From positions 2,868,709 to 2,902,604 of the forward strand of contig LS998015.1 of NCBI GenBank assembly GCA_900498245.1: a stretch of 33,896 nt of DNA, read 5' to 3'. Both the position numbers and the translations under genes were made by a program. Shown in pieces: positions 8,461-33,896 of the stretch. This stretch comes from Candidatus Zixiibacteriota bacterium. Its GTDB lineage: Bacteria; Zixibacteria; MSB-5A5; GN15; PGXB01. The notes beneath the pieces were generated by a model, which saw nothing but the letters and a program-made list of their open reading frames with translations, did no database searches and was not told where the DNA came from. Within the stretch, counting starts at the first letter, position 1. Each line of letters opens with the position of its first letter.

Positions 8461-9225
8461 TCAGTTGAAAGTGTCTATCAGAGGCAAAATTTGCTTCGGA
8501 TCGAATTTGCGTTTTATTTTGAGGGAATAACCAGAAGCGACATCGTCATCAGGACGCTGATATAATTTGAGGAATTTTCGATATTCAAACGGGAGCATTT
8601 TCAGATTTTGGTATTCTTCCTGGAGCGAAAGGGGAAGTACCCTCAGGGTAGCGACCGCAATTAATCCGAGAAGTCCCCACGATGGCGAAAATATCTTCAC
8701 AATATCATATCCGGAAACCGATTTGAAGCAGGCCGAACCGGGCTTGATAATTTCCCCTTCGGGCGTAGCAATTTCGGCCATAAGAAAATAGCGACTTAAC
8801 GGCAAAACGTGTTCGTTTTGATAGGCTGACAGGCCGGCCGCCAGGGCACCACCGACCGAACCGACATAGGGAAGTCCGGAATGAGGAAGGAATAAGTTGA
8901 ATTCCTTCAATTCACGATTGATTTCGCGAAGGGGAAAGCCGGACCCGACAATAATATAGAAATCATCGGGGACAATCCTGAACATGGTGTTCATCCGGTC
9001 TGTCCTGATTGTCACCAGTCCTTCGAATTTTCGGCCCATCGGATCAATTTGATTGCCAAAGCCGGTGATAAACAATGGAAATTCATATCTGTTGGCCAAA
9101 ACAAAGAGCTGTGCCGCTTCGGAAGCCGACTCCGGATGAAAAGTGGGGATCCCTTTCTGATATGTCAGCCGATCTTCCGGGAATTCCGACAATATTACTT
9201 TAATAAAATCCACAAGTTTAATCAC
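8461..9225 (-). CDS. Short GlcE-like FAD-binding (FAD_binding_4) protein
   Basis: The 254-residue product matches the FAD-binding half of the vanillyl-alcohol-oxidase/PCMH fold: TFHPESASEAAQLFVLA in the N-terminal part, a FITGFGNQ loop, IVGSGFPLREINREL, LPYVGSVGGALAAG, and a VSGYDIVKIF segment like the GYD motif of the glycolate oxidase subunit GlcE. The substrate-cap domain of GlcD-type enzymes is absent, and the protein is shorter than GlcE, so it may be a subunit or a non-catalytic flavoprotein; no GlcD or GlcF partner is in the window. The start codon is GTG (9223-9225); an in-frame stop four codons upstream rules out a longer protein. The start is 41 nt from the divergent paralogue array. 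Confidence 0.75.
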   Translation of the reverse strand: MIKLVDFIKVILSEFPEDRLTYQKGIPTFHPESASEAAQLFVLANRYEFPLFITGFGNQIDPMGRKFEGLVTIRTDRMNTMFRIVPDDFYIIVGSGFPLREINRELKEFNLFLPHSGLPYVGSVGGALAAGLSAYQNEHVLPLSRYFLMAEIATPEGEIIKPGSACFKSVSGYDIVKIFSPSWGLLGLIAVATLRVLPLSLQEEYQNLKMLPFEYRKFLKLYQRPDDDVASGYSLKIKRKFDPKQILPLIDTFN

Positions 9226-9266: not shown

Positions 9267-11357
9267 ATGGGAAATTGCCCCAAATTGGATGAGCGGCCTG
9301 CAGTGAAAGAAAAAGATAACCATATCTTCTGGATCTTAAATTATTCCCTGGTATTCCTGTATCTTTTGCATCTGGTCCCCTTCGCGCTTCATAATGCCCG
9401 GCTATGGGGACTCAACCATCTAGTTTTCCTTCCCCCGGGCTTTACAATTGTCTATTCAATTCTGGGAATTTTGACTCTTGGCCTGATTTTTATTCCGGCC
9501 GTTCGCGAGAAAGGGAATGCCATCTTCAACTTCACGGCCTCTCTATTATTTGAATCCCGGCACAAATATCTCGCGCGGGTTCTTGTTATTGTTATTGCGG
9601 GGGTGACCTTTTCAATTTTCCCCATGCCGACACACTTCCTTGGTGACGGATATCAATATCTGGAAAACATCGGCTCCTCGTCAGGGACCTTTGTGAAATG
9701 GAGCGAAATGGGTGTCGCCCTTATAGTTCTTGGCCTCCAATCATTAATCGGCCCCAAAAGCCCCGAGAATGCTCTATTGGCTTTCCGAATTGTCGCCGTC
9801 CTTTCAGGCATCATTACGATATGGTTTTATTTTCTGATTGCCGAGATAATGTCTGGGGACAGAACGTATCGACTAATAGTATTCATAATATCGCTTCTTT
9901 CCGGTTCGCTTCTGCTCTTTTTTGGATATGTGGAGTTCTATCCCCTGCTATGGCCTGCAGTGACAGGCTTCATCTATTATGGTCTGAAATATATTAAAAA
10001 AGGCGCTGGTCTTCCCGGCTGTCTCACTTTTCTATTGGGGGGACTGGTAATTCATTTAATAATGGCGGTTTTCATCCCATCTTTTGCCTATCTGGCTATT
10101 TTTACAGGAAAAGGCGCCATCATATATCGCCGCCTTCGGAAGTTGGTCTGGGTCGTCATCTTGACTGCTGTTGCCGTCTGTCTCGCGGCGGTGATATACA
10201 AATTCAAAACCGATCTGGGCTTCGAAAATATTTTCTTGCCTCTTTTTCAGGGGAAATCGATAAATCCGTCCTATGCCCTTATATCCTTGCCGCACCTTAT
10301 AGATATCGTCAATCTTTTGCTACTTTTATCTCCGCTTCTTCCGGTCATGATCCTGGTGCTGATATTTTATCGCGAACGCAATTTATCCAGATCGGAATTT
10401 ATATATCTGGGATGGGCCGCCGCCGGGACCATCCTTTTTCTCTTTGTCATAGACCCTTCTCTGACCATGCCGCGCGATTGGGATCTTTTCTCTTTGTCCG
10501 CTTTTCCCATCACCCTTCTCATCCTTCTAGCCATAAAGCCGGTCGGCAGGACTTTGATATCCGGCCTCTCTTCAACTATCCTTGTCGCCTTAATTGCCTT
10601 CACGATGCCGTTTATTGTGACCAACCTACGGACAGATTCATCGATTGCCTATGTTTCTTCCTTTGTCAATGAAGACCGCGCCAAATCGATGGGCACGGTG
10701 TTTAATCTAAAAGTATATTATGACAGGATAGGGGATACGGCCCGGGCCGATTCAATCAATCATGAACTGAATCTTCACTATCGCGACCTGGTTCTTATCA
10801 ATCAGGCCCTGAAGGCCGTCTATGATAATGACATGAAGACCGCCAATAATCTGATCCCCTTGATTACACCTAACGAATTTTCTAAAGATTATCACCTCCT
10901 GCTCGGGATGTACTACCTGAATATCAGGAAGACCGATTTTGCGCTTATTGAAATAAGAAAGGCCATTCAACTTCAGCCATATTATTACAAGTCATATCTG
11001 GATCTGGCCATCGCATATATGGCCCAGCGGAATCGGGCCAAATCAATTGAATCGCTTAAAGAAGCCCTGAAACTGAAAAATAACGACAGCGAGGTCCTTT
11101 TTGTCCTGGCCTCGGCGTACCTGGGAGAGGGGCAAGCCGACTCGTGTGAATTTTACAGCCGAAATCTTTTGCGAGTTGATTCGAATTATTTTCCGGTCTA
11201 TTATTTACTGGCGAGGGCGGCCATAATCAAGGGCTCAAAATCAGACGCCGAGAGATGGTCAGAGATTTTTATCGAAAAGGGAACCGGCTCACCCGGTTAT
11301 GATATGCAGAAGAATGAACTACTAAAAATGCTCGGCGACTCCATAAAAGTCAAATGA
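9267..11357 (+). CDS. Array copy 1: GT-C-like multi-pass membrane protein with C-terminal TPRs
   Basis: The 696-residue protein has about 12-13 hydrophobic helices over residues 20-452, then a soluble helical tail with TPRs (clearest at 525-650). The first large loop, after the helix ending near 120, carries THFLGDGY (His123, Asp127) and then FVKWSE. Further landmarks are FFGYVE (Glu223) and MPRDWDLFS (Asp404, Asp406). The order of an acidic loop motif with Tyr, a K-containing segment before an LLGLQSLIG helix, and then AFRIVAVLSG parallels PMT_2/GT39 enzymes (DxxxY, KPP, LFG, RLPSAL), which move sugars from lipid carriers. Glycosyltransferase activity is therefore inferred. The ATG at 9267 has no ribosome binding site; GTG at 9303 with GAG 8 nt upstream is a good alternative. 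This copy has Phe where the others have Asn after FFGYVE. Confidence 0.85.
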   Translation: MGNCPKLDERPAVKEKDNHIFWILNYSLVFLYLLHLVPFALHNARLWGLNHLVFLPPGFTIVYSILGILTLGLIFIPAVREKGNAIFNFTASLLFESRHKYLARVLVIVIAGVTFSIFPMPTHFLGDGYQYLENIGSSSGTFVKWSEMGVALIVLGLQSLIGPKSPENALLAFRIVAVLSGIITIWFYFLIAEIMSGDRTYRLIVFIISLLSGSLLLFFGYVEFYPLLWPAVTGFIYYGLKYIKKGAGLPGCLTFLLGGLVIHLIMAVFIPSFAYLAIFTGKGAIIYRRLRKLVWVVILTAVAVCLAAVIYKFKTDLGFENIFLPLFQGKSINPSYALISLPHLIDIVNLLLLLSPLLPVMILVLIFYRERNLSRSEFIYLGWAAAGTILFLFVIDPSLTMPRDWDLFSLSAFPITLLILLAIKPVGRTLISGLSSTILVALIAFTMPFIVTNLRTDSSIAYVSSFVNEDRAKSMGTVFNLKVYYDRIGDTARADSINHELNLHYRDLVLINQALKAVYDNDMKTANNLIPLITPNEFSKDYHLLLGMYYLNIRKTDFALIEIRKAIQLQPYYYKSYLDLAIAYMAQRNRAKSIESLKEALKLKNNDSEVLFVLASAYLGEGQADSCEFYSRNLLRVDSNYFPVYYLLARAAIIKGSKSDAERWSEIFIEKGTGSPGYDMQKNELLKMLGDSIKVK

Positions 11358-11381
11358 CAGGATTCCGGATAAGTTAAATTC

Positions 11382-13424
11382 ATGAATAAGGAAACAGCTC
11401 CATATTCGTACCTGATAGTTACATTACTTGTAATTCTGTGGGGAATACACTTCATACCGCTTCTATCTGAAAAATCTCGAATGTGGGGCTTCAATCATTT
11501 GATATTTCTTCCCCTGCCCGTGATAATAAGTTTTGTGCTGATCGGGATTTCGGTTCTGGCATTGACCCTTTTGCCATGCAGCCGCAGTTGGGATCAAAAT
11601 CTTACATCATGGTTTTCCCGTATTTTTTTCGAGTCCCGGCAAAAATATCTGTACCGGTCCATTTTCGCGGCCGTCTGCGGCATCATTTTCTTACTATTCC
11701 CCATGCCGACCCATTTTCTTGGCGACGGCTATCAGTACTTGAACAATATCGCATCGGAATCGGGGACATTTGTCAAATGGAGCGAAAAGGGAATTACATA
11801 TATTCTGCTCGCAGTCCAAGCTCTTTTGGGCACGAAAGATCTCCATTCGGCTCTAATGGCCTTCAGAACGGTTTCTGTCGCGTCGGGTATTGCCGCAATT
11901 TGGCTGTATTTTTTGATTGCCCAGGAATCGATTTCCGGACCAATTGGACGATTACTTATTTTTGCCACTCTCACATTTTCGGGAAGCCTTCTATTATTTT
12001 TCGGGTATGTCGAAAATTATCCCCTCCTTTGGATAGCCGTCCCGGGTTTGATTTACTTCTGCCTTCGTTATTTGAAGGGGAAATCCGGTCTTTTGGGGGC
12101 ACTTATTTTTCTTCTTTTCGGAATCTTTATCCATCTTCTTACGGCCATATTTCTTCCGGCGGTCATATATGTAATTTTCAGCGTCGGCCGCGGGAAAATC
12201 CTGTTCCAAAAATTCAGGATGGCCTTCATCGCCGCCGGAAGCGTCTTTATCCTGGCGATAATTTATTTGTTTATCCGCCAGTATTCGACCAATTTGTATT
12301 TTGAAAATATATTCCTGCCGTTATTTACAGGCAAACCGATAGACCCCGCATACGCCATATTGAGTTCGTCGCATATTATCGACATGATAAATCTTCTTTT
12401 TTTGCTGTATCCGCTCCTTCCATTATTCGTCGTAGTAGGATTGAGTGAATTTCGCACTATGGCGTCAAAACCGCCAGGCATGTTCCTTCTGCTCGCCGCA
12501 TTGGGGGGCCTGGCATTTCTGCTGGTTATTGACCCGGGTCTGACCATGCCGCGCGATTGGGATCTGTTCAGTCTTAGCGGCCTTGCACTCATCTTGTTTC
12601 TACTGACGAATAGCAGATATGACAGCGACAGAAATCTCATGAGGATCCCGATAATCCCGGTAATTGCAGTCACAATTTTATCCTCGGTACCTTATGTAAT
12701 GGTCAATCTTAACGGCCCTTCTTCCGCGCGGTACGTAGAGAATTTTGTATCGAATGATATGAGTAAATCAATGGGCACTCTGATAACTTTGCGGGAATAT
12801 TTCAAGGAACAAGGCGACATGACCCTGGCTGATTCCGTGAACGACGTCATTAATAGTAAATTTGGCAATTTCAATTTGATGCGTGACGCCATGACCGCCA
12901 TTCAGCGCGGCGATTTGAATCGAGCAGGTCAAATAATAAACCGGATCGCGCCCGATAAATTTTCCAAAAATTATCATCGCCTCATGGCATTTTACCATCT
13001 TCTCGAAAAAAAACCGGGCTTGGCCGCCCAAGAAGCCCGCAAGGCCATTCAGGTACAACCCTATTCGTACGATTCCTATTTGCTGTTGTCGAGTTGCTTT
13101 CAAATTCAGGGCGAGTATGACAGCGCCCTAGCCGTCCTACAGGTCGCCTATCAACTGAATAACAGATCTCTGCCCATTTTGACGGCCCTGGCCGATATTT
13201 CCCTGTTCCAAAGAAATTTTGAATCAGCGCTGATCTATTCATCAAAAATTATTGAAATGGATTCCCTGAATGCCAATGGCCTTTATTTTCTTACCAAATC
13301 GTATTTTGGTGAAGGACGGACGGAGGATGCACGGAAGTACGCCGGAAAATATCTAACATACGAAGCCCGGGATCCATTGTTCGAAACACGTAAGAAGGAA
13401 CTTCATGAGTTGCTCGGGAGATGA
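11382..13424 (+). CDS. Array copy 2: GT-C-like multi-pass membrane protein with C-terminal TPRs
   Basis: This 680-residue protein aligns from end to end with its upstream neighbour, which ends 24 nt before it. The motif positions are THFLGDGY with His111 and Asp115, FFGYVENYP with Glu211, and MPRDWDLFS with Asp392 and Asp394. Just after the last membrane helix comes a conserved N-x-x-x-x-SS-x-x-Y element (NLNGPSSARY), then a linker ending DKFSKNYH and TPRs with the family phrase EARKAIQVQPYSYDSYL. The short N-terminus of about 10 residues before the first helix suggests the ATG is correct, though the ribosome binding site is weak. It overlaps the next gene by 4 nt, so the two are probably translationally coupled. 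A periplasmic location for the TPR half is expected if it follows TMTC topology, but helix counts by eye cannot settle the side. Confidence 0.85.
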   Translation: MNKETAPYSYLIVTLLVILWGIHFIPLLSEKSRMWGFNHLIFLPLPVIISFVLIGISVLALTLLPCSRSWDQNLTSWFSRIFFESRQKYLYRSIFAAVCGIIFLLFPMPTHFLGDGYQYLNNIASESGTFVKWSEKGITYILLAVQALLGTKDLHSALMAFRTVSVASGIAAIWLYFLIAQESISGPIGRLLIFATLTFSGSLLLFFGYVENYPLLWIAVPGLIYFCLRYLKGKSGLLGALIFLLFGIFIHLLTAIFLPAVIYVIFSVGRGKILFQKFRMAFIAAGSVFILAIIYLFIRQYSTNLYFENIFLPLFTGKPIDPAYAILSSSHIIDMINLLFLLYPLLPLFVVVGLSEFRTMASKPPGMFLLLAALGGLAFLLVIDPGLTMPRDWDLFSLSGLALILFLLTNSRYDSDRNLMRIPIIPVIAVTILSSVPYVMVNLNGPSSARYVENFVSNDMSKSMGTLITLREYFKEQGDMTLADSVNDVINSKFGNFNLMRDAMTAIQRGDLNRAGQIINRIAPDKFSKNYHRLMAFYHLLEKKPGLAAQEARKAIQVQPYSYDSYLLLSSCFQIQGEYDSALAVLQVAYQLNNRSLPILTALADISLFQRNFESALIYSSKIIEMDSLNANGLYFLTKSYFGEGRTEDARKYAGKYLTYEARDPLFETRKKELHELLGR

Positions 13425-15508
13425 TGCTCCGGCATTGGCCGAAGAGCCGAAAGGCAATTATGGGATATAATCGGGGCCGCAACTGGTTTCACCTTTCATA
13501 TCTTTTCCTGATCTTGATTTTCCTGCTTCATCTATTTCCTATTGCCGCGTCATCATCGCGAATGTGGGGCTTTAATCATCTGCTGTTTCTGCCTCCTTCT
13601 TATACAATGATTTTTATAATCGCGGCGCTGTTTGCCGTCCTGTTTCCCCTGACCCCCGTCGCCTCGAAATACAGTACTGCACTGGCCGACGGTTTTACAA
13701 CGCTGTTTTACAATTCGTCCCGCCGTTATGTTTATAGAGCCATTGTCATTGCTCTGGCGGCTGTCCTGTTTGTTGCCTTCCCGGCGCCGACTCATTTTCT
13801 TGGCGACGGTTATTCTGTGCTGAATAATATCGCATCGCCATCAGGACATTTCGTCAAGTGGACTGAAAAAGGGATTACCTATATACTCCTCGGGCTGCAG
13901 TCGCTATTCGGCGGCAGTTCACCCAATAACGCCGAAGCCGCCTTCCGTGCGGTTTCTGTGATTTCCGGAATGATCGCCGTCTGGTTCTATTTTCTTCTAG
14001 CCGAGATCATGGCCGACAGCCGAATTAAGAGACTTTTGATCTTCGGAACATTGTTTTTTTCCGGATCGCTTCTTCTGTTTTTTGGGTATGTTGAGAATTA
14101 TCCGCTTCTCTGGCCGGCGGGGAGTGCTTTCATCTATTTTTCGATGAAGTATATAAGGACGGGGCGGGGAATCACGCCGGCATTGGTTATCCTTTTGTTC
14201 GGAATCATGATACATCTTGAAACATCCATTTTTATTCCGACCTTTATTTTCATAGTCTTTGCTCGCGGTAAGCCGCGTAATTTGTACAATAGGTTTCCCC
14301 GGTCATTTCAGGGCTTCACTTTGCTTTTAATCGGCGCCGTCATTTTCCTTTTTTCCCGAAAAATCATGACCGATTTGTATTTTGAAAACATCTTTCTGCC
14401 GCCCTTTGTCGGGAAATCGATCGATCCATCCTATGCGATTTTTTCCGTTCGTCACCTTCTTGACCAATTGAATCTATTACTGCTTCTTTATCCCGCTATC
14501 CCCCTTCTTTTGCTCTGGGGGCTGCGTAGTCTCTCCTGGAAACATTGGGACAAAATAACAATATTTCTGTTTTTGGCCGCCGGCGGCGGTCTGTTATTTA
14601 TGACTGTCATCGACCCCACGCTCGGCATGGCCAAGGATTGGGATTTATTCTCATTGACCGGGCTTGGTTCGGCGCTTTTGCTGCTTTACCTAATAAAGGA
14701 AGAATTCCATTTGACGATCGCGAGAATTTTGGTGCCTTTTTTGCTCCTTATCTCATTATCTACGGTCAATTATCTGGTCACCAATCTCGATAAAGAAAGT
14801 TCGGAAAAATATATAAGGAACATTATCGCTTTTGACGGCAAACGGGCGCTTCACGCTATGATTGTTCTGAGAGACTATTGCCTTCGCGACGGCCGGGTGG
14901 CGGCCGCCGATTCGATCGACAGCGATTTTCGGATCCGGTTTCCCGATGAAGCCGATATTCAGCGCGCCGGCTATGCTCTCGATCAGGGCGATACTCTCCT
15001 GGCGACCGGGATCATGGAAGCGATGCCCGCTCAAAAATTCTCCTATGCTTATCATAATCTGTGGAGCATGATTTATTACTGGGAAAAGAAATATGACAGT
15101 GCTCTAATGCAATCCGATATGGCCGTCACCTTGAACAATTATAATTCAAACCTATTCTTCAACCGCGCCCGCATCTTCAGTCGGATGGAAAATTATGACA
15201 GCGCCATTGGGGCACTGAAAAATGCCTATCTCCTGGACAATTCCAATATTGAGATCATTACCGGCATGGCGGCCCTTTTCATCTACTTCAAGCAACCGGA
15301 TTCCTGCATCAAATATTCCCTCCGGGCACAGGCGATTGATTCCGACCGCCCATCTTCATATTATTTTTTGGCGCAAGCATATAATCTTCTGAATGATCAC
15401 GTCTTGGCCGTCGAAAATGCCCGTCAATATCTGAAACTCGGGGCAAAAGACCCAGCCTTTGCCAGACGAAGAGCGGAAATGATGAGTCTTGTGGGGGATG
15501 CGTTATGA
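13421..15508 (+). CDS. Array copy 3: GT-C-like multi-pass membrane protein with C-terminal TPRs
   Basis: This 695-residue member starts with ATG overlapping the previous stop (ATGATG/TGA). A second ATG at 13460 has AAAGG 5 nt upstream and would remove 13 residues, giving an N-terminus like the other copies; it may be the true start. Motifs: THFLGDGY (His125, Asp129), FFGYVENYP (Glu225), and MAKDWDLFS (Asp406, Asp408). It is the only copy with Lys rather than Arg before DWD, and Ala replaces Pro as in copy 5. The IHLETS segment keeps the His-Leu pair found in all copies in the middle of the membrane domain. TPR-like repeats occupy about 525-680, including YDSALMQSDMAVTLNNYNSN and YDSAIGALKNAYLLDNSN. 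It overlaps the next gene by 4 nt. Confidence 0.85.
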   Translation: MMLRHWPKSRKAIMGYNRGRNWFHLSYLFLILIFLLHLFPIAASSSRMWGFNHLLFLPPSYTMIFIIAALFAVLFPLTPVASKYSTALADGFTTLFYNSSRRYVYRAIVIALAAVLFVAFPAPTHFLGDGYSVLNNIASPSGHFVKWTEKGITYILLGLQSLFGGSSPNNAEAAFRAVSVISGMIAVWFYFLLAEIMADSRIKRLLIFGTLFFSGSLLLFFGYVENYPLLWPAGSAFIYFSMKYIRTGRGITPALVILLFGIMIHLETSIFIPTFIFIVFARGKPRNLYNRFPRSFQGFTLLLIGAVIFLFSRKIMTDLYFENIFLPPFVGKSIDPSYAIFSVRHLLDQLNLLLLLYPAIPLLLLWGLRSLSWKHWDKITIFLFLAAGGGLLFMTVIDPTLGMAKDWDLFSLTGLGSALLLLYLIKEEFHLTIARILVPFLLLISLSTVNYLVTNLDKESSEKYIRNIIAFDGKRALHAMIVLRDYCLRDGRVAAADSIDSDFRIRFPDEADIQRAGYALDQGDTLLATGIMEAMPAQKFSYAYHNLWSMIYYWEKKYDSALMQSDMAVTLNNYNSNLFFNRARIFSRMENYDSAIGALKNAYLLDNSNIEIITGMAALFIYFKQPDSCIKYSLRAQAIDSDRPSSYYFLAQAYNLLNDHVLAVENARQYLKLGAKDPAFARRRAEMMSLVGDAL

Positions 15509-17574
15509 GGGGAAAGTCCCGATTTGTTAAAAGCCCGAAATTTTCGACCGGGCCATTCTGGGTCCCTTATTTAATTCTCTCCGGATTGTTTGCGCTTCAG
15601 TTTCTTCCTCTTCTATTTCCCCGGAGCCGCCTTTGGGCTTTTAACAGTCTAATCTTCCTTCCGCCCGCATACCTGGTTGCATGTATTTTGCTTGCAGCCG
15701 TTGCCCTGATTGCCCCATTTCTCACTTTTATGGCTCCGTTTAACAGCAGGCTAAAATCATGGTTCCAGCAGGTATTTTTCGAGTCCCCGCGAAAATATCT
15801 CTATAGGCTTCTTTTCGTCGGCGTCAGCGTGACACTTTTTATAACGCTTTCCGCGAAAACTCATTTTCTTGGCGACGGTTATGCTCTTCTCGGGAATTTG
15901 GCTTCGCAGACCGGTGAATTTGTTAAATGGAGCGAGCGCGGGGTTACTATTATTCTGATAACGGTCAGATCGCTTTTGGGCGGGCCAAGTGCCGATACCG
16001 CTTTGAATTCTTTCCGGATGGTATCATACCTATCAGGGGCCGTATCACTTTGGTTCATTTTTGCCTTGACCGGTCTGATTTCTTCCGGAGATCGCTATCA
16101 TATTATGGTCTTTTCGGCCCTCCTTTTTACCGGGATGCTTCTTCTTTTCTTTGGCTATGTTGAGAATTACCCCCTCGTCTGGATCGGCCTTACCGGATTT
16201 TCTTTTTTTGCCATTAAATATCTGCGCACGGGGAAAGGAATTGTTCTATCAGGCACATTTCTCCTTTTTGGAATATTTATGCATCTCGAGATGGGCATAT
16301 TCGTTCCGGCATATCTGTTCCTTTTATTTATTCGAGGGGCCGGGAACCGATTTTATAAACGATTTCCGTATTTGGTTTGGATTTTCGTCTGTACTTTAAT
16401 AATTCTGGCACTGTACATATTCCGACACAAATATTCGACCAGTGTTTACTTTCAAAATTTCTTTCTTCCCTTATTCACGGGAAAGCCGCAGGATCCGGCC
16501 TATGCTGTTTTCAGTTGGCCCCACATAATAGATATGCTGAATCAATTGTTCCTGCTATTTCCGTTACTATTGATTCTTCTTCCTTTCGCCTCGAGAGGAT
16601 GGAAAAGACTTCTTAAATCGTCCGAAGGCTTATTTTTAACGCTGATGGCCCTGGGCGGAGTTGCTTTTCTCTCAATTATAGATCCTACCCTGGGGATGCC
16701 ACGGGATTGGGATCTTTTTTCAATCACTGCCTTCGGCCTGATTTTATTAGTCGTCCTGGCAATTCCCGACAAAAAGGAAATTATTCCGGTCAGATTTATT
16801 TTCCCCCTCTTGATGTTTTCCGTAATGATCTCCGGATTGAATATCGCGAAAAATATAAATGTTAACTCATCTCTTGCGTATACAAGGTATTTTGCCCGCC
16901 TTGACACACCCAAATCCCTATCCACTCTGATGGCCATGCACGGATATTTCAAAAATAACAGCGATACTGCGGCCGTCGCCGATCTGCATCTGGAGTTCAG
17001 CGATATCTTCCAGTCCGAACAAAAAATGGAACGAGCCGTCAAGGCGGGAGACAACGGCGATTTTAAATCTCTTAGAGCCCTTCTCGATTCGATACCTCCC
17101 GACAATTACTCGTCCCGCTACCACCTCATCCTGAGCCAGAAAATGGCTTTCGAGGGGCAGTTGCAGTTGTCGCTGCAGGAACTGAACAAGGCCATCCAAC
17201 TGCAGGAGTATAATTTCAATTTATATACACGGCGCTCCATGATTTATGCCATCCTGAATAAATATCCCGAGGCCCTGACCGACCTGCAGATGGCATATCG
17301 TTTGAACAACAGCAACATGGCATTGCTCGAAGGTCTGGCAATTATGCAACTCGAGTGTAACAGACCCGATTCAGCCCTGTATTATACGGAACTGCTGGAA
17401 AAACAGGGTCCGACCGGCACCCTTCTATTTTATATCAGAGCCCGCGCCGGAAGTCTCCTGGGCAATGAGCAACTGGCAAAAATCAATGCCCATCTTTACA
17501 TCGACAAAGCGCTTACTGATCCGAAATACCCGGTTCGAAAAAAGGAAATGGAACAGATTTTGAGACTTCCCTGA
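15505..17574 (+). CDS. Array copy 4: GT-C-like multi-pass membrane protein with C-terminal TPRs
   Basis: This 689-residue copy has the clearest ribosome binding site of the array, GGGGGAT at 15493-15499, and an ATGA overlap with the preceding gene. The loop motif is preceded by SAK instead of the PMP or PAP seen elsewhere, but THFLGDGY itself is intact (His120, Asp124), as are FFGYVENYP (Glu220) and MPRDWDLFS (Asp401, Asp403). The middle His-Leu pair is in FMHLEMG. The TPR half begins after PPDNYSSRYH and contains SLQELNKAIQLQEYNFNLY and YPEALTDLQMAYRLNNSNM. The acidic-rich linker before the TPRs is the most diverged stretch relative to the other copies. It closes the tightly packed part of the array; 129 nt separate it from copy 5. 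Confidence 0.85.
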   Translation: MRGKSRFVKSPKFSTGPFWVPYLILSGLFALQFLPLLFPRSRLWAFNSLIFLPPAYLVACILLAAVALIAPFLTFMAPFNSRLKSWFQQVFFESPRKYLYRLLFVGVSVTLFITLSAKTHFLGDGYALLGNLASQTGEFVKWSERGVTIILITVRSLLGGPSADTALNSFRMVSYLSGAVSLWFIFALTGLISSGDRYHIMVFSALLFTGMLLLFFGYVENYPLVWIGLTGFSFFAIKYLRTGKGIVLSGTFLLFGIFMHLEMGIFVPAYLFLLFIRGAGNRFYKRFPYLVWIFVCTLIILALYIFRHKYSTSVYFQNFFLPLFTGKPQDPAYAVFSWPHIIDMLNQLFLLFPLLLILLPFASRGWKRLLKSSEGLFLTLMALGGVAFLSIIDPTLGMPRDWDLFSITAFGLILLVVLAIPDKKEIIPVRFIFPLLMFSVMISGLNIAKNINVNSSLAYTRYFARLDTPKSLSTLMAMHGYFKNNSDTAAVADLHLEFSDIFQSEQKMERAVKAGDNGDFKSLRALLDSIPPDNYSSRYHLILSQKMAFEGQLQLSLQELNKAIQLQEYNFNLYTRRSMIYAILNKYPEALTDLQMAYRLNNSNMALLEGLAIMQLECNRPDSALYYTELLEKQGPTGTLLFYIRARAGSLLGNEQLAKINAHLYIDKALTDPKYPVRKKEMEQILRLP

Positions 17575-17603
17575 ACGACTCTGTCGCATCCTCAAGTTTC
17601 GGG

Positions 17604-17617
17604 GTCAGTCGACTGAC
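17604..17617. promoter_or_regulatory. 14-bp perfect palindrome, possible operator of array copy 5
   Basis: GTCAGTCGACTGAC reads identically on both strands. It lies 4 nt upstream of the -35 box of the predicted promoter for copy 5, a position typical of activator or repressor sites. No T tract follows directly, so it is not a standard terminator for copy 4. Confidence 0.35.
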
Positions 17618-17621
17618 GAAT

Positions 17622-17651
17622 TTCACTTCCCGATAATAATATTTGTATAAT
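17622..17651 (+). promoter_or_regulatory. Promoter of array copy 5
   Basis: A consensus TATAAT (17646-17651) lies 18 bases after TTCACT (17622-17627, four of six matches to TTGACA). It would give a leader of about 45 nt before the TTG at 17704, and makes copy 5 a separate transcription unit or one with an additional start. Confidence 0.5.
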
Positions 17652-17703
17652 ATTCCGGGCGACCATAAATTTGGGATACATCTATTAATCAACGGGGTTA
17701 TAA

Positions 17704-19764
17704 TTGAAAAAGTGGCCGAACAAGATGGAATTCAGAGTCGCATATATTCTTCTGGCCGCTTTAATCTTAATTCGCTTTATTCCTCTTATTTTTTCCGCCA
17801 GCCGAACGTGGGGATTCAATCAATACATATTTCTGCCCGCCTATCTGACAGTAATATACGCTTTATTCTCCGGACTCCTTTTGTTCTGGCCTTTTTCTCC
17901 TTGGCTGCTTTCATTCGGCGAGAAAATTGCGAAAGAAATTTCCGCATTTCTGTTTTCCTCACCCAACCGTATAAGAAACAGAATTTTAGTTCTGGCAGTT
18001 GCGGCCATTCTTTTCATTTCCCTTAGGATGCCGACCCATTTTCTCGGCGATGGCTATGCATTGCTATCCAATCTGGCGTCCCCTTCGGGAACTTTTGTCA
18101 AATGGACTGAAAAGGGAATCGTTTTCGTCCAGATCGGACTTATGTCGGTTCTGGGAGCCCCAGGAGAATCGACGGCGCTCTGGACATTCAGAATTATTTC
18201 GTTTCTCTCCGGTCTGGCCTCACTCTGGTTCTTTCTTATGATTGCCGATATTCTCGGCGAAACCGGCATCAAGAAATTGTTGATAGTGTCGGTTATAACA
18301 TTTTCCGGAAGCCTCCTTCTCTTTTTCGGTTATGTGGAAAATTACCCTCTTCTCTGGCCGGCATTGGCCGGTTTCACATATTTCGGAGTCAAACACATTA
18401 AGAGCGGTTCAGGACTTTCATTGGCCGCTCTTTTTCTCATTCTGGGGATCATAGTGCATCTGGAAATGGCAATTTTTATGCCGGCCTTGATTTTTATGAT
18501 CTTTGTCCGAGGCCGAGGGTACAAAATATATCGAGCCCTTCGCCCATTCTGGTGGATGACTTTTGCCGCCGTTACGGCATTGCTAATTTTTCTTTTCCAA
18601 TACAAAATCAGAACCGATCTATTTTTCGAAAATATTTTTCTGCCCATTTTTGGAGGGAAACCGATTGCGCCTTCATATTCCATTTTTTCTCCGTCTCATC
18701 TGGCCGATATGGTCAATCTATTCCTTCTCCTGTCGCCCGTTCTTCCGGTCCTGATAATTTTGGCACTTCACCGGACGGACTCGAACCGGGCCGAGAAGAA
18801 TCTTCACACCTTTCTGCTAATATCTTTTTTCGGCGCCCTCTTATTTCTTCTGGCGGTTGATCCCACATTGGGAATGGCACGCGATTGGGATCTGTTTTCT
18901 TTGAGTGCCTTCAGTTTTACATTATTTATTTCCCGCCTGATTTCCTCTGAAACGGAATCGGCACGGAGACTTATGATACCGACCATTACTCTTGCGGCCA
19001 TCGCCGCACTTGCTTTTTTGGCCGTAAATCTCGGGGCCCCTTCTTCGGCGCGATATTGCCAGTACATTATAAACCTGGATCGCAATAAGTCATTTGGAGC
19101 CCTGGTCGCACTTCATAGGTACTATTTGAAAAGCGGTGACATCTATCATGCCGATTCGGTCAACAAAATATATTACGCGGTTTTTGCCGACGAACTCAGA
19201 ATGGATCGGGCCGAGGAAGCACTGGAGAAAGGCGACTATCATGGGGCCCGGGAACTGTCTCAGCATATCACGCCGGATAAATTTTCCTCACGCTACCATA
19301 TGCTGATGAGCAATATCTTTTTTCAAGAGGGTGATCCGGATCGCGCTCTCAGGGAGATGGATCAATCCATTCAATTACAGCCATACAACGGCAAATTATA
19401 TCTGGCGCGGGCGATGATTTACAGCCGGCTGGGGCGCAATGCCAATGCCATACAGGATCTCCGGCAGGGATATCGTTATAATACTCACGATAAAGATATT
19501 TTGGAAGGCCTGGCCGCCTTGTATTTATATATTTCCAGACCGGATTCCGCGGTCTTATATGCCAAAAAACTCGCAGTCGCCGACTCCTCCGGCTCGGATG
19601 GCTATTATTATCTTTCAAAAGCATTTGCTACATTGGGCAACATTGCAGAGGCAAAGAAATATCTAACTGATTTCAGTAATCGTGCCACAATTGCCGAAAT
19701 TGAGCAGACCCGACGGATGGAATTGGAAAAGTTAATATCCAACCTGGAAGCGACAGGCCGATAA
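17704..19764 (+). CDS. Array copy 5: GT-C-like multi-pass membrane protein with C-terminal TPRs
   Basis: The 686-residue frame opens with TTG (17704), which has GGGG 6 nt upstream; ATG at 17725 would remove 7 residues and cannot be excluded. Motifs: THFLGDGY (His112, Asp116), FFGYVENYP (Glu212), IVHLEMA, FFENIFLPIFGGK, and MARDWDLFS (Asp394, Asp396). After NLGAPSSARY the linker ends DKFSSRYH, and the TPRs include ALREMDQSIQLQPYNGKLYL and NAIQDLRQGYRYNTHDKDI. Unlike copies 1-4 it is preceded by its own consensus -10 box and a palindrome, so it may be regulated separately. A strong bidirectional terminator follows the stop and separates it from groEL. Confidence 0.85.
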   Translation: MKKWPNKMEFRVAYILLAALILIRFIPLIFSASRTWGFNQYIFLPAYLTVIYALFSGLLLFWPFSPWLLSFGEKIAKEISAFLFSSPNRIRNRILVLAVAAILFISLRMPTHFLGDGYALLSNLASPSGTFVKWTEKGIVFVQIGLMSVLGAPGESTALWTFRIISFLSGLASLWFFLMIADILGETGIKKLLIVSVITFSGSLLLFFGYVENYPLLWPALAGFTYFGVKHIKSGSGLSLAALFLILGIIVHLEMAIFMPALIFMIFVRGRGYKIYRALRPFWWMTFAAVTALLIFLFQYKIRTDLFFENIFLPIFGGKPIAPSYSIFSPSHLADMVNLFLLLSPVLPVLIILALHRTDSNRAEKNLHTFLLISFFGALLFLLAVDPTLGMARDWDLFSLSAFSFTLFISRLISSETESARRLMIPTITLAAIAALAFLAVNLGAPSSARYCQYIINLDRNKSFGALVALHRYYLKSGDIYHADSVNKIYYAVFADELRMDRAEEALEKGDYHGARELSQHITPDKFSSRYHMLMSNIFFQEGDPDRALREMDQSIQLQPYNGKLYLARAMIYSRLGRNANAIQDLRQGYRYNTHDKDILEGLAALYLYISRPDSAVLYAKKLAVADSSGSDGYYYLSKAFATLGNIAEAKKYLTDFSNRATIAEIEQTRRMELEKLISNLEATGR

Positions 19765-19824: not shown

Positions 19825-21471
<1,647 letters not shown>

Positions 21472-32093: not shown

Positions 32094-33896
32094 ATGGGAA
32101 AATTGCTAACGATTTTATTGATCGCGATGCTATCCATCGCTAGTTCGGTTTCGGCTCAGATAGTTATAGGGCCGCCCGACGATGAAACCATCATTGATAC
32201 GACAATTCCTCCCGGGCCGATTCCTCGCCCGCCTGTCAGCATGATTTATGGGGGAACGACAACTCAGACGACTGACGCCGTTAACATCTCTCAAATCGAT
32301 TGTTCGAATTTCCCCCTTATATGTCTGTATGTCGATGTTCTTGATATCAACGGCGATCCTATTCCGGGGATGACGGCCGATAGTTTCTGTGTGACTCAGG
32401 ATGGCAATCCGATCGGCAGCTATACTGTTCAGCAGCTGACCCAGGACTCCTGCATCACTTCGGTCTGCTTTGTGGTTGACGTGAGCGGCAGCATGGGGGA
32501 TAACCATAAGCTCGATTCGGCCAAGTCGGCCATGCATACTTTCGTCAATAATATGGACCCCTTTGACCGGGTGGCCATTGTCCCATATTCCAATTGCATT
32601 GGCACGATCACCAATTTTACAAGCAATAAAACCACTCTTCATAATGCCATTAACGCCTTGGCGGCAGGCGGTAATACGGCCTGCTTCGACGGCATTTATA
32701 AGGGCGTCGATATTACCCGGCTGGAGTTGGGAAGCAAAGCCGTTATTGCCTTCACCGATGGTCTTGAAAACCGGAGCCAATATTGTTATCCGCCGCCCGA
32801 TGGAGTTGGCGACCATCATTATAATGACGATTCTACTTTGATCTGCAACCTGGCTAACGCATCCGGTATTCCCATCTATACATTTAACGTGGGCCCGATT
32901 GACAATACCTGGTACAACCCCGAAGCCCTTCAGGCCTTTGCCGCCGGAACGGGCGGTTCCTGGGACCAGGCCCCTACCGGCGCGGAAATTAGCGCTCTCT
33001 ACGCCAGAATCAAGCAGAAACTCTGCAGCCGTTATTACATTTGCTACACCAGTCTTGATACAGTTCAAAACGGCGAGTACCATACCACGGTTATCTGCCA
33101 TAAAAGCGGTACGACCTGCTCCCCATGTGATACCGCTACTTGCCAGGAAAAGGATAACCCCCATGGACATCGCACGCCGGCGACAATAGCTCTCAGTGAT
33201 ACTTGTCAGTCCGACAACAACAATGTCACGATTTGCACCTATGTTACCGATCTTGACACTCCCCCCAGCGGCCTGACGGTGACGCTTTTTTACCGGGTTA
33301 CAGGACAAACCAGTTATACCTCCGCACCTATGAGTGCGCCTCCCGGAGACAGTACATTCTGTGCCACCATCGCCGCATCCATCTTGAATTGCAAAACAAA
33401 CCTTGATTACTATATAACCGCTTCCGACGGTGACGCGACCGTCTCTGATCCTCAAATTAATCCGCAGGTGTCTCCATACACATTTGAAATCTGCCCCAAT
33501 CATCCTCCGGTGGCAAACGCCGGAACCGATCAAACAATAGCCCAGTGCGCCGCGGCTCCGATCTGCTGGCCAGCATCCTGTAGTGATATCGACAGCAACC
33601 TGATGTCCCAGCAATTGATCAGCGGTCCCGGCACCTACGACGGTAGCCAGATTTGTTTCACGCCGGCGGGGACCCTTAACTATGAATTTGTTCTGAAAGC
33701 CACCGATAGTTGCGGCGCAACCGCCTATGATACGGTGGTGATTTATTATACTCTCAATCATGCCCCCGTGGCCAATGCGGGTCGGGACTCGACCCTGTTC
33801 CAGTGTGTGGCGGCGCCGATCTGCTGGCCGGCCTCGTGCAGTGATTTTGACGGTAATCTCACCAACTGCGCCCTTATTTCCGGTCCGGGAACCTAT
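32094..33896 (+). CDS. Secreted VWA-domain protein with Cys-rich PKD-like repeats (5' part, runs off the window)
   Basis: The frame is open for 601 codons to the right edge. AGGGAG (32078-32083) precedes the ATG by 10 nt. A signal peptide (residues 1-21, SVSA/Q cleavage) is followed by a Pro-rich linker and an N-terminal beta domain rich in Cys. A von Willebrand factor A domain spans about 120-320, with the MIDAS motif DVSGSMG (Asp129, Ser131, Ser133) and FTDG (Asp222), so divalent metal binding is likely. After an Ig-like segment (about 365-465) come 86-residue repeats with AAPICWPASCSD and SGPGTY. Cys is unusually abundant throughout, indicating disulfides outside the cytoplasm. It is probably an adhesin or surface protein, with function otherwise unknown. 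A 543-codon frame on the opposite strand is a shadow of this gene. Confidence 0.85.
   Translation, partial: MGKLLTILLIAMLSIASSVSAQIVIGPPDDETIIDTTIPPGPIPRPPVSMIYGGTTTQTTDAVNISQIDCSNFPLICLYVDVLDINGDPIPGMTADSFCVTQDGNPIGSYTVQQLTQDSCITSVCFVVDVSGSMGDNHKLDSAKSAMHTFVNNMDPFDRVAIVPYSNCIGTITNFTSNKTTLHNAINALAAGGNTACFDGIYKGVDITRLELGSKAVIAFTDGLENRSQYCYPPPDGVGDHHYNDDSTLICNLANASGIPIYTFNVGPIDNTWYNPEALQAFAAGTGGSWDQAPTGAEISALYARIKQKLCSRYYICYTSLDTVQNGEYHTTVICHKSGTTCSPCDTATCQEKDNPHGHRTPATIALSDTCQSDNNNVTICTYVTDLDTPPSGLTVTLFYRVTGQTSYTSAPMSAPPGDSTFCATIAASILNCKTNLDYYITASDGDATVSDPQINPQVSPYTFEICPNHPPVANAGTDQTIAQCAAAPICWPASCSDIDSNLMSQQLISGPGTYDGSQICFTPAGTLNYEFVLKATDSCGATAYDTVVIYYTLNHAPVANAGRDSTLFQCVAAPICWPASCSDFDGNLTNCALISGPGTY
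33498..33896 (+). repeat. Tandem 86-codon repeats in the VWA protein gene
   Basis: Copy one runs from 33498 to 33755 and copy two from 33756 beyond the edge, a period of exactly 258 bases. Both begin NH(P/A)PVANAG, then share C(A/V)AAPICWPASCSD(I/F)D and SGPGTY. The protein match is closer than the DNA match, which has many silent differences, so the duplication is not very recent or is maintained by selection. The layout resembles PKD-type repeats stabilised by disulfides. Confidence 0.75.

Follow-up and report, generated by a model that had tools for sequence, protein, structure and literature searches.

The five consecutive genes described here are best explained, with a probability of roughly 0.6, as old paralogues, all intact, from a family of GT-C glycosyltransferases with periplasmic TPRs that occurs across Zixibacteria; they would take sugar from a lipid-linked donor and transfer it to an acceptor presented by the TPRs. 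They lie in a window (the whole stretch of DNA analysed, 33,896 nucleotides) of a genome that consists of one contig of 3,508,505 bases.

The array and its neighbourhood

The array comprises five same-strand ORFs of 680-696 aa, which fill positions 9267-19764 of the window and are homologous over their whole length. These genes and the two that bound them are listed below in window coordinates.

8461..9225, minus strand: divergent neighbour, FAD_binding_4 protein (GlcE/lactate-dehydrogenase-like), 254 aa; from Pfam and solved relatives
9267..11357, plus strand: copy 1, predicted GT-C/TPR protein, 696 aa; from ORF and alignment
11382..13424, plus strand: copy 2, predicted GT-C/TPR protein, 680 aa; structure modelled
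13421..15508, plus strand: copy 3, predicted GT-C/TPR protein, 695 aa; Lys in place of the EL5 Arg
15505..17574, plus strand: copy 4, predicted GT-C/TPR protein, 689 aa; sub-threshold PMT_2 match
17704..19764, plus strand: copy 5, predicted GT-C/TPR protein, 686 aa; start at TTG 17704 or ATG 17725
19825..21456, minus strand: GroEL, right-hand boundary of the array

The alignment of copies 1-5 has 705 columns with a mean column identity of 57%, and identity to copy 1 is 34-40% across the other copies. Full-length profile scores exceed 1000 bits for the family, so homology by chance is not an issue. ORFs and alignment agree with the sequence-only reading of the locus as five tandem homologues that align end to end with no other gene inserted. 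The C-terminal TPRs that it assigned to every copy were likewise retrieved with Pfam in all five, in copies 3 and 4 only under the curated cut-offs, and are also present in the structure model of copy 2. Copies 1 and 2 are separated by 24 bp, overlaps of 4 bp occur twice and 129 bp precede copy 5; these short gaps and overlaps would be compatible with a single operon for all five copies. A promoter-like site at 17622-17651, which is a consensus match only, lies upstream of copy 5, and a separate internal promoter may be present there. No Rfam matches were retrieved in the window. Further downstream, at 32094-33896 (plus strand), a gene for a large von Willebrand A-domain protein, which has repeated 'VANAG' modules, begins and runs past the window end.

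FAD_binding_4 is the only domain of the divergent neighbour, which is shorter than the usual oxidases of its type. Of 60 relatives, 54 carry its gene, each in a single copy, and in 12 loci from several families of the order it adjoins or lies near GT-C/TPR genes. This neighbourhood is read as conserved synteny only, and a functional link is putative. A role as a DprE1-like partner was considered and rejected: among solved structures, the protein is closest to GlcE and lactate dehydrogenase subunits, and in most f4 genomes its gene lies at a distance from the family. Between the FAD gene and groEL, related genera have two copies (G003, G008 and G011) or one (G004). The short copy that adjoins the FAD gene in G005 was not taken for a pseudogene, as a run of 100 N at that point is likely an assembly gap.

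Elsewhere, the neighbours of the members examined are unrelated (GroEL, DNA polymerase III, proteases, TsaD and NAD kinase), no recognisable polysaccharide clusters surround them, and the array locus itself has no linked acceptor or glycan gene. Dockerin-domain proteins, one of them with a subtilase domain, are encoded beside dispersed members (L090:5567-7954 and L093:6434-8305); they are possible acceptors or a coincidence.

Fold of the membrane half and conserved residues

Whole-protein structure and sequence searches gave only TPR proteins, and the membrane half was for this reason aligned, modelled and searched alone. The AlphaFold model of copy 2 had a pLDDT of 93.5 for the whole protein and, for the membrane part, a pLDDT of 93.2 and a pTM of 0.93; in it, the core has about 11 transmembrane helices and is preceded by an N-terminal hairpin of two helices. 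The best Foldseek matches of the membrane half were AglB, STT3, ArnT, PglB, DPY19 and AftB. All 50 VIA-align rows were GT-C-fold proteins (Z 8.7-19.3), namely oligosaccharyltransferases, PMTs, ArnT, ALG enzymes, a GPI-transamidase subunit, DPY19 and mycobacterial arabinosyltransferases, with yeast Stt3 (Z 19.3, 317 residues, 5.5 Å) as the best match and Pmt2 (Z 18.2, 334 residues, 4.8 Å) and ArnT (Z 17.1, 296 residues, 4.4 Å) among the others. The match spans approximately residues 76-470, while residues 1-75, which form the hairpin with a conserved WGxNHLxFLP motif, are mostly outside it. Transporters appeared in Foldseek only at probability ≤0.25, and no polymerases were among the structure-match lists, although absence from a list is not proof against an O-antigen polymerase. 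Judged from the model and its matches, the membrane half almost certainly has the GT-C fold that the sequence-only reading had expected.

This fold is shared with ArnT, PMT and PMT_2 proteins, but the array family carries a TPR tail where ArnT has its periplasmic domain and Pmt its MIR domain. Stt3, AglB and PglB, which gave the best structural scores, have an EL1 aspartate in common with the family; in contrast to them, its C-terminal domain is a TPR solenoid, and nothing points to pyrophosphate-linked oligosaccharide donors.

The sequence-level tie of the family to known GT-Cs appears weak. A profile of the membrane half retrieved nothing from PDB sequences at E≤10, NCBIfam gave no match of note for it, and neither Pfam nor NCBIfam has a dedicated model of this half. 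Pfam PMT_2 was matched by 2 out of 57 members (best 5.6e-5). Copy 4 reached 18.4 bits against PMT_2 (PF13231), for a cut-off of 26.1, with an E-value of 0.004 in the genome search; no window copy matched PMT_2 at E≤1 in the Pfam-wide scan. TMEM260-like proteins (PF11028) are membrane glycosyltransferases of the same broad class, and no more than one of the 57 members gave even a weak match to their profile (E 0.22). Profile comparisons with hhalign gave a probability of 69% over 115 columns for the genome's own PMT_2 proteins and of 2% for its TMEM260-like proteins. This genome is rich in GT-C candidates: besides the nine members of the family, it contains ten PMT_2 and four TMEM260-like matches over the cut-off, one protein being in both lists.

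Several polar residues are nearly invariant among the 57 members (copy 2 numbering): D115 (56/57), E211 (55/57), H251 (56/57), H331 (57/57), R391 (56/57) and D394 (56/57). The statement that all catalytic-looking motifs are retained in every copy holds for eight residues (D115, E211, H251, H331, D334, D392, W393 and D394), which are kept in all five; the exception is R391, which is Lys in copy 3, a conservative replacement and the only change among the conserved polar residues in the array. By the helix boundaries of the copy 2 model, from which loops were assigned with no residue-level superposition, D115 follows core TM1, E211 precedes TM4, H251 follows TM5, H331 and D334 precede TM8, and R391-D394 precede TM10. 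The loops so assigned, EL1-EL5, are those where ArnT and the TMTCs have their ligand-binding residues, and the active-site Asp of ArnT is Asp55 (PMC7801869). The VIA-align rows for ArnT start at 86 to 26 and 85 to 25, placing D115 at ArnT position 55 if TM1/EL1 align ungapped, as these are range offsets and not a residue alignment. The acidic loop residue proposed from the letters is thus located in EL1, at the active-site position by this offset. The EL1 motif of the family is GDG, the residue after D115 being Gly in 56 of the 57 members. K+R per residue is 0.14-0.27 in predicted cytoplasmic loops vs 0.00-0.11 in predicted periplasmic ones; from the model and this positive-inside pattern, we infer that the conserved polar residues and the C-terminal TPRs are on the periplasmic side.

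A divergent sub-branch common to two genera (L091:7897-9966, near 799911 of this genome, and L108:4494-6587 of G008) no longer has the EL1 aspartate motif, with DSG or GNG in place of GDG, nor His251; Glu211 is missing as well from the copy in this genome. Selection may have kept these as non-catalytic paralogues. With one dispersed paralogue lacking the catalytic Asp, not every family member need be an enzyme.

Distribution and history of the family

Four dispersed full-length members are encoded in the same genome, at 136522, 212084, 799911 and 3087459, bringing the total to nine. In a search of related genomes for copy number and synteny, the membrane half was present in 113 of the 132 genomes of the phylum set (E≤1e-15). 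Related records are nearly all labelled Candidatus Zixiibacteriota, candidate division Zixibacteria or GN15; outside the phylum, a degenerate-pattern scan, which detects only relatives carrying the scanned motifs, retrieved one Gemmatimonadota record and two labelled only 'bacterium'. Tandem pairs and triplets are common among the relatives, and no run longer than five was seen among the matches listed. Our literature search found no paper on this GT-C/TPR family. Full-length TMTC-like GT-C/TPR homologues have, however, been reported in prokaryotes (PMC7801869); the kind of protein is therefore known, and what is new is the family, its hairpin and its expansion.

A genus-mate, whose sequence is split over two contigs, has clear orthologues of copies 2, 4 and 5 (support 100/100) and a C-terminal fragment with 60% identity to copy 3; in place of copy 1 it has a gene with only about 40% identity to any of the copies. 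These orthologues indicate that the array copies are older than the split of the two species. The orthologues of copies 2-5 are about 60-62% identical, with pN of 0.21-0.26 vs pS of 0.70-0.79, the latter being near-saturated; by this measure, copies 2-5 are demonstrably maintained by purifying selection. The five paralogues are 41-52% identical in the GT-C core and 26-34% in the TPRs. The ratio dTPR/dGT-C is 1.28-2.34 between them and 0.77-1.03 in three orthologue pairs; TPRs that diverge more than the core between paralogues, yet are conserved like the core in these pairs, would point to copy-specific roles of the TPRs. This is suggestive only, as orthologue pairs from a second genus are mixed (1.28 and 1.82).

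Proposed function and alternative readings

From the modelled fold and the conserved residues, the array proteins are very probably active glycosyltransferases that use lipid-linked sugars at the outer face of the inner membrane. A polyprenyl-phosphate donor that enters from the membrane would supply the sugar; the EL1 aspartate, D115 in copy 2, would serve as catalytic or metal-binding acid, and the donor phosphate would be held by the EL5 Arg, or by Lys in copy 3. The sugar would then be transferred to an acceptor presented by the TPRs, most likely exported or membrane proteins, and the copies would differ probably mainly in acceptor. The chances that the acceptor is a protein are about even, and we give similar odds to each copy having acceptors of its own. 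A different acceptor or sugar for each copy, as the sequence-only reading had suggested, is plausible as a hypothesis. A GT2 of this genome, akin to ArnC and dolichol-phosphate-mannose synthase, could be the donor synthase; a search of the same genome found no GtrA flippase.

Alternatively, the same GT-C enzymes might modify lipids or surface polysaccharide, as ArnT and AftB do, with the TPRs docking to envelope assembly machinery. The presence of ArnT, AftB, ALG9/12 and PimE among the structural matches fits such a role; however, the best matches also include the protein-modifying Stt3 and Pmt, and the members examined sit outside recognisable polysaccharide clusters, so we consider it rather unlikely. 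Redundancy of the copies, with duplication serving dosage and divergence reflecting drift, would account for the varying copy number at the FAD-GroEL site, but is improbable: redundancy should lead to loss or homogenisation of copies, whereas orthologues of copies 2-5 have been retained across a genus with pN far under pS and the paralogues differ widely in both halves.

The sequence-only reading had likened the array to eukaryotic TMTC O-mannosyltransferases. The layout of TMTC1-4 is indeed shared, as in both a GT-C membrane core precedes C-terminal TPRs that lie on the lumenal or periplasmic side, where the active site is, and both have an EL1 acidic residue and a conserved EL5 Arg (PMC7801869 for the TMTCs). 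Membership of the family did not stand. TMTC1-4 have a DUF1736 loop between TM7 and TM8, a strictly conserved DD in EL1 and an ERxxY motif, whereas the array family has GDG and RDWD, the extra N-terminal hairpin and no detectable sequence match to them; neither the whole genome (E≤0.1) nor any of the 57 members (E≤1) gave a match to DUF1736 (PF08409). Despite the common order of parts and the reported prokaryotic homologues, it is thus highly improbable that the array proteins are true bacterial orthologues of the TMTC/DUF1736 family.

The reading of the array as intact GT-C/TPR paralogues adds to a phylum, Zixibacteria, known mainly from environmental assemblies, a previously unannotated family of likely glycosyltransferases with up to 9-10 per genome, which may let the cell decorate several different proteins. 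More tentatively, with the odds against it, the family could represent a phylum-wide and repeatedly expanded protein glycosylation, in which the TPRs of each paralogue serve its own exported proteins and the TMTC layout was reached independently of the TMTCs. The array is a natural set of paralogues for asking whether TPR domains dictate the acceptor choice of GT-C enzymes, a question that bears on the human TMTCs.
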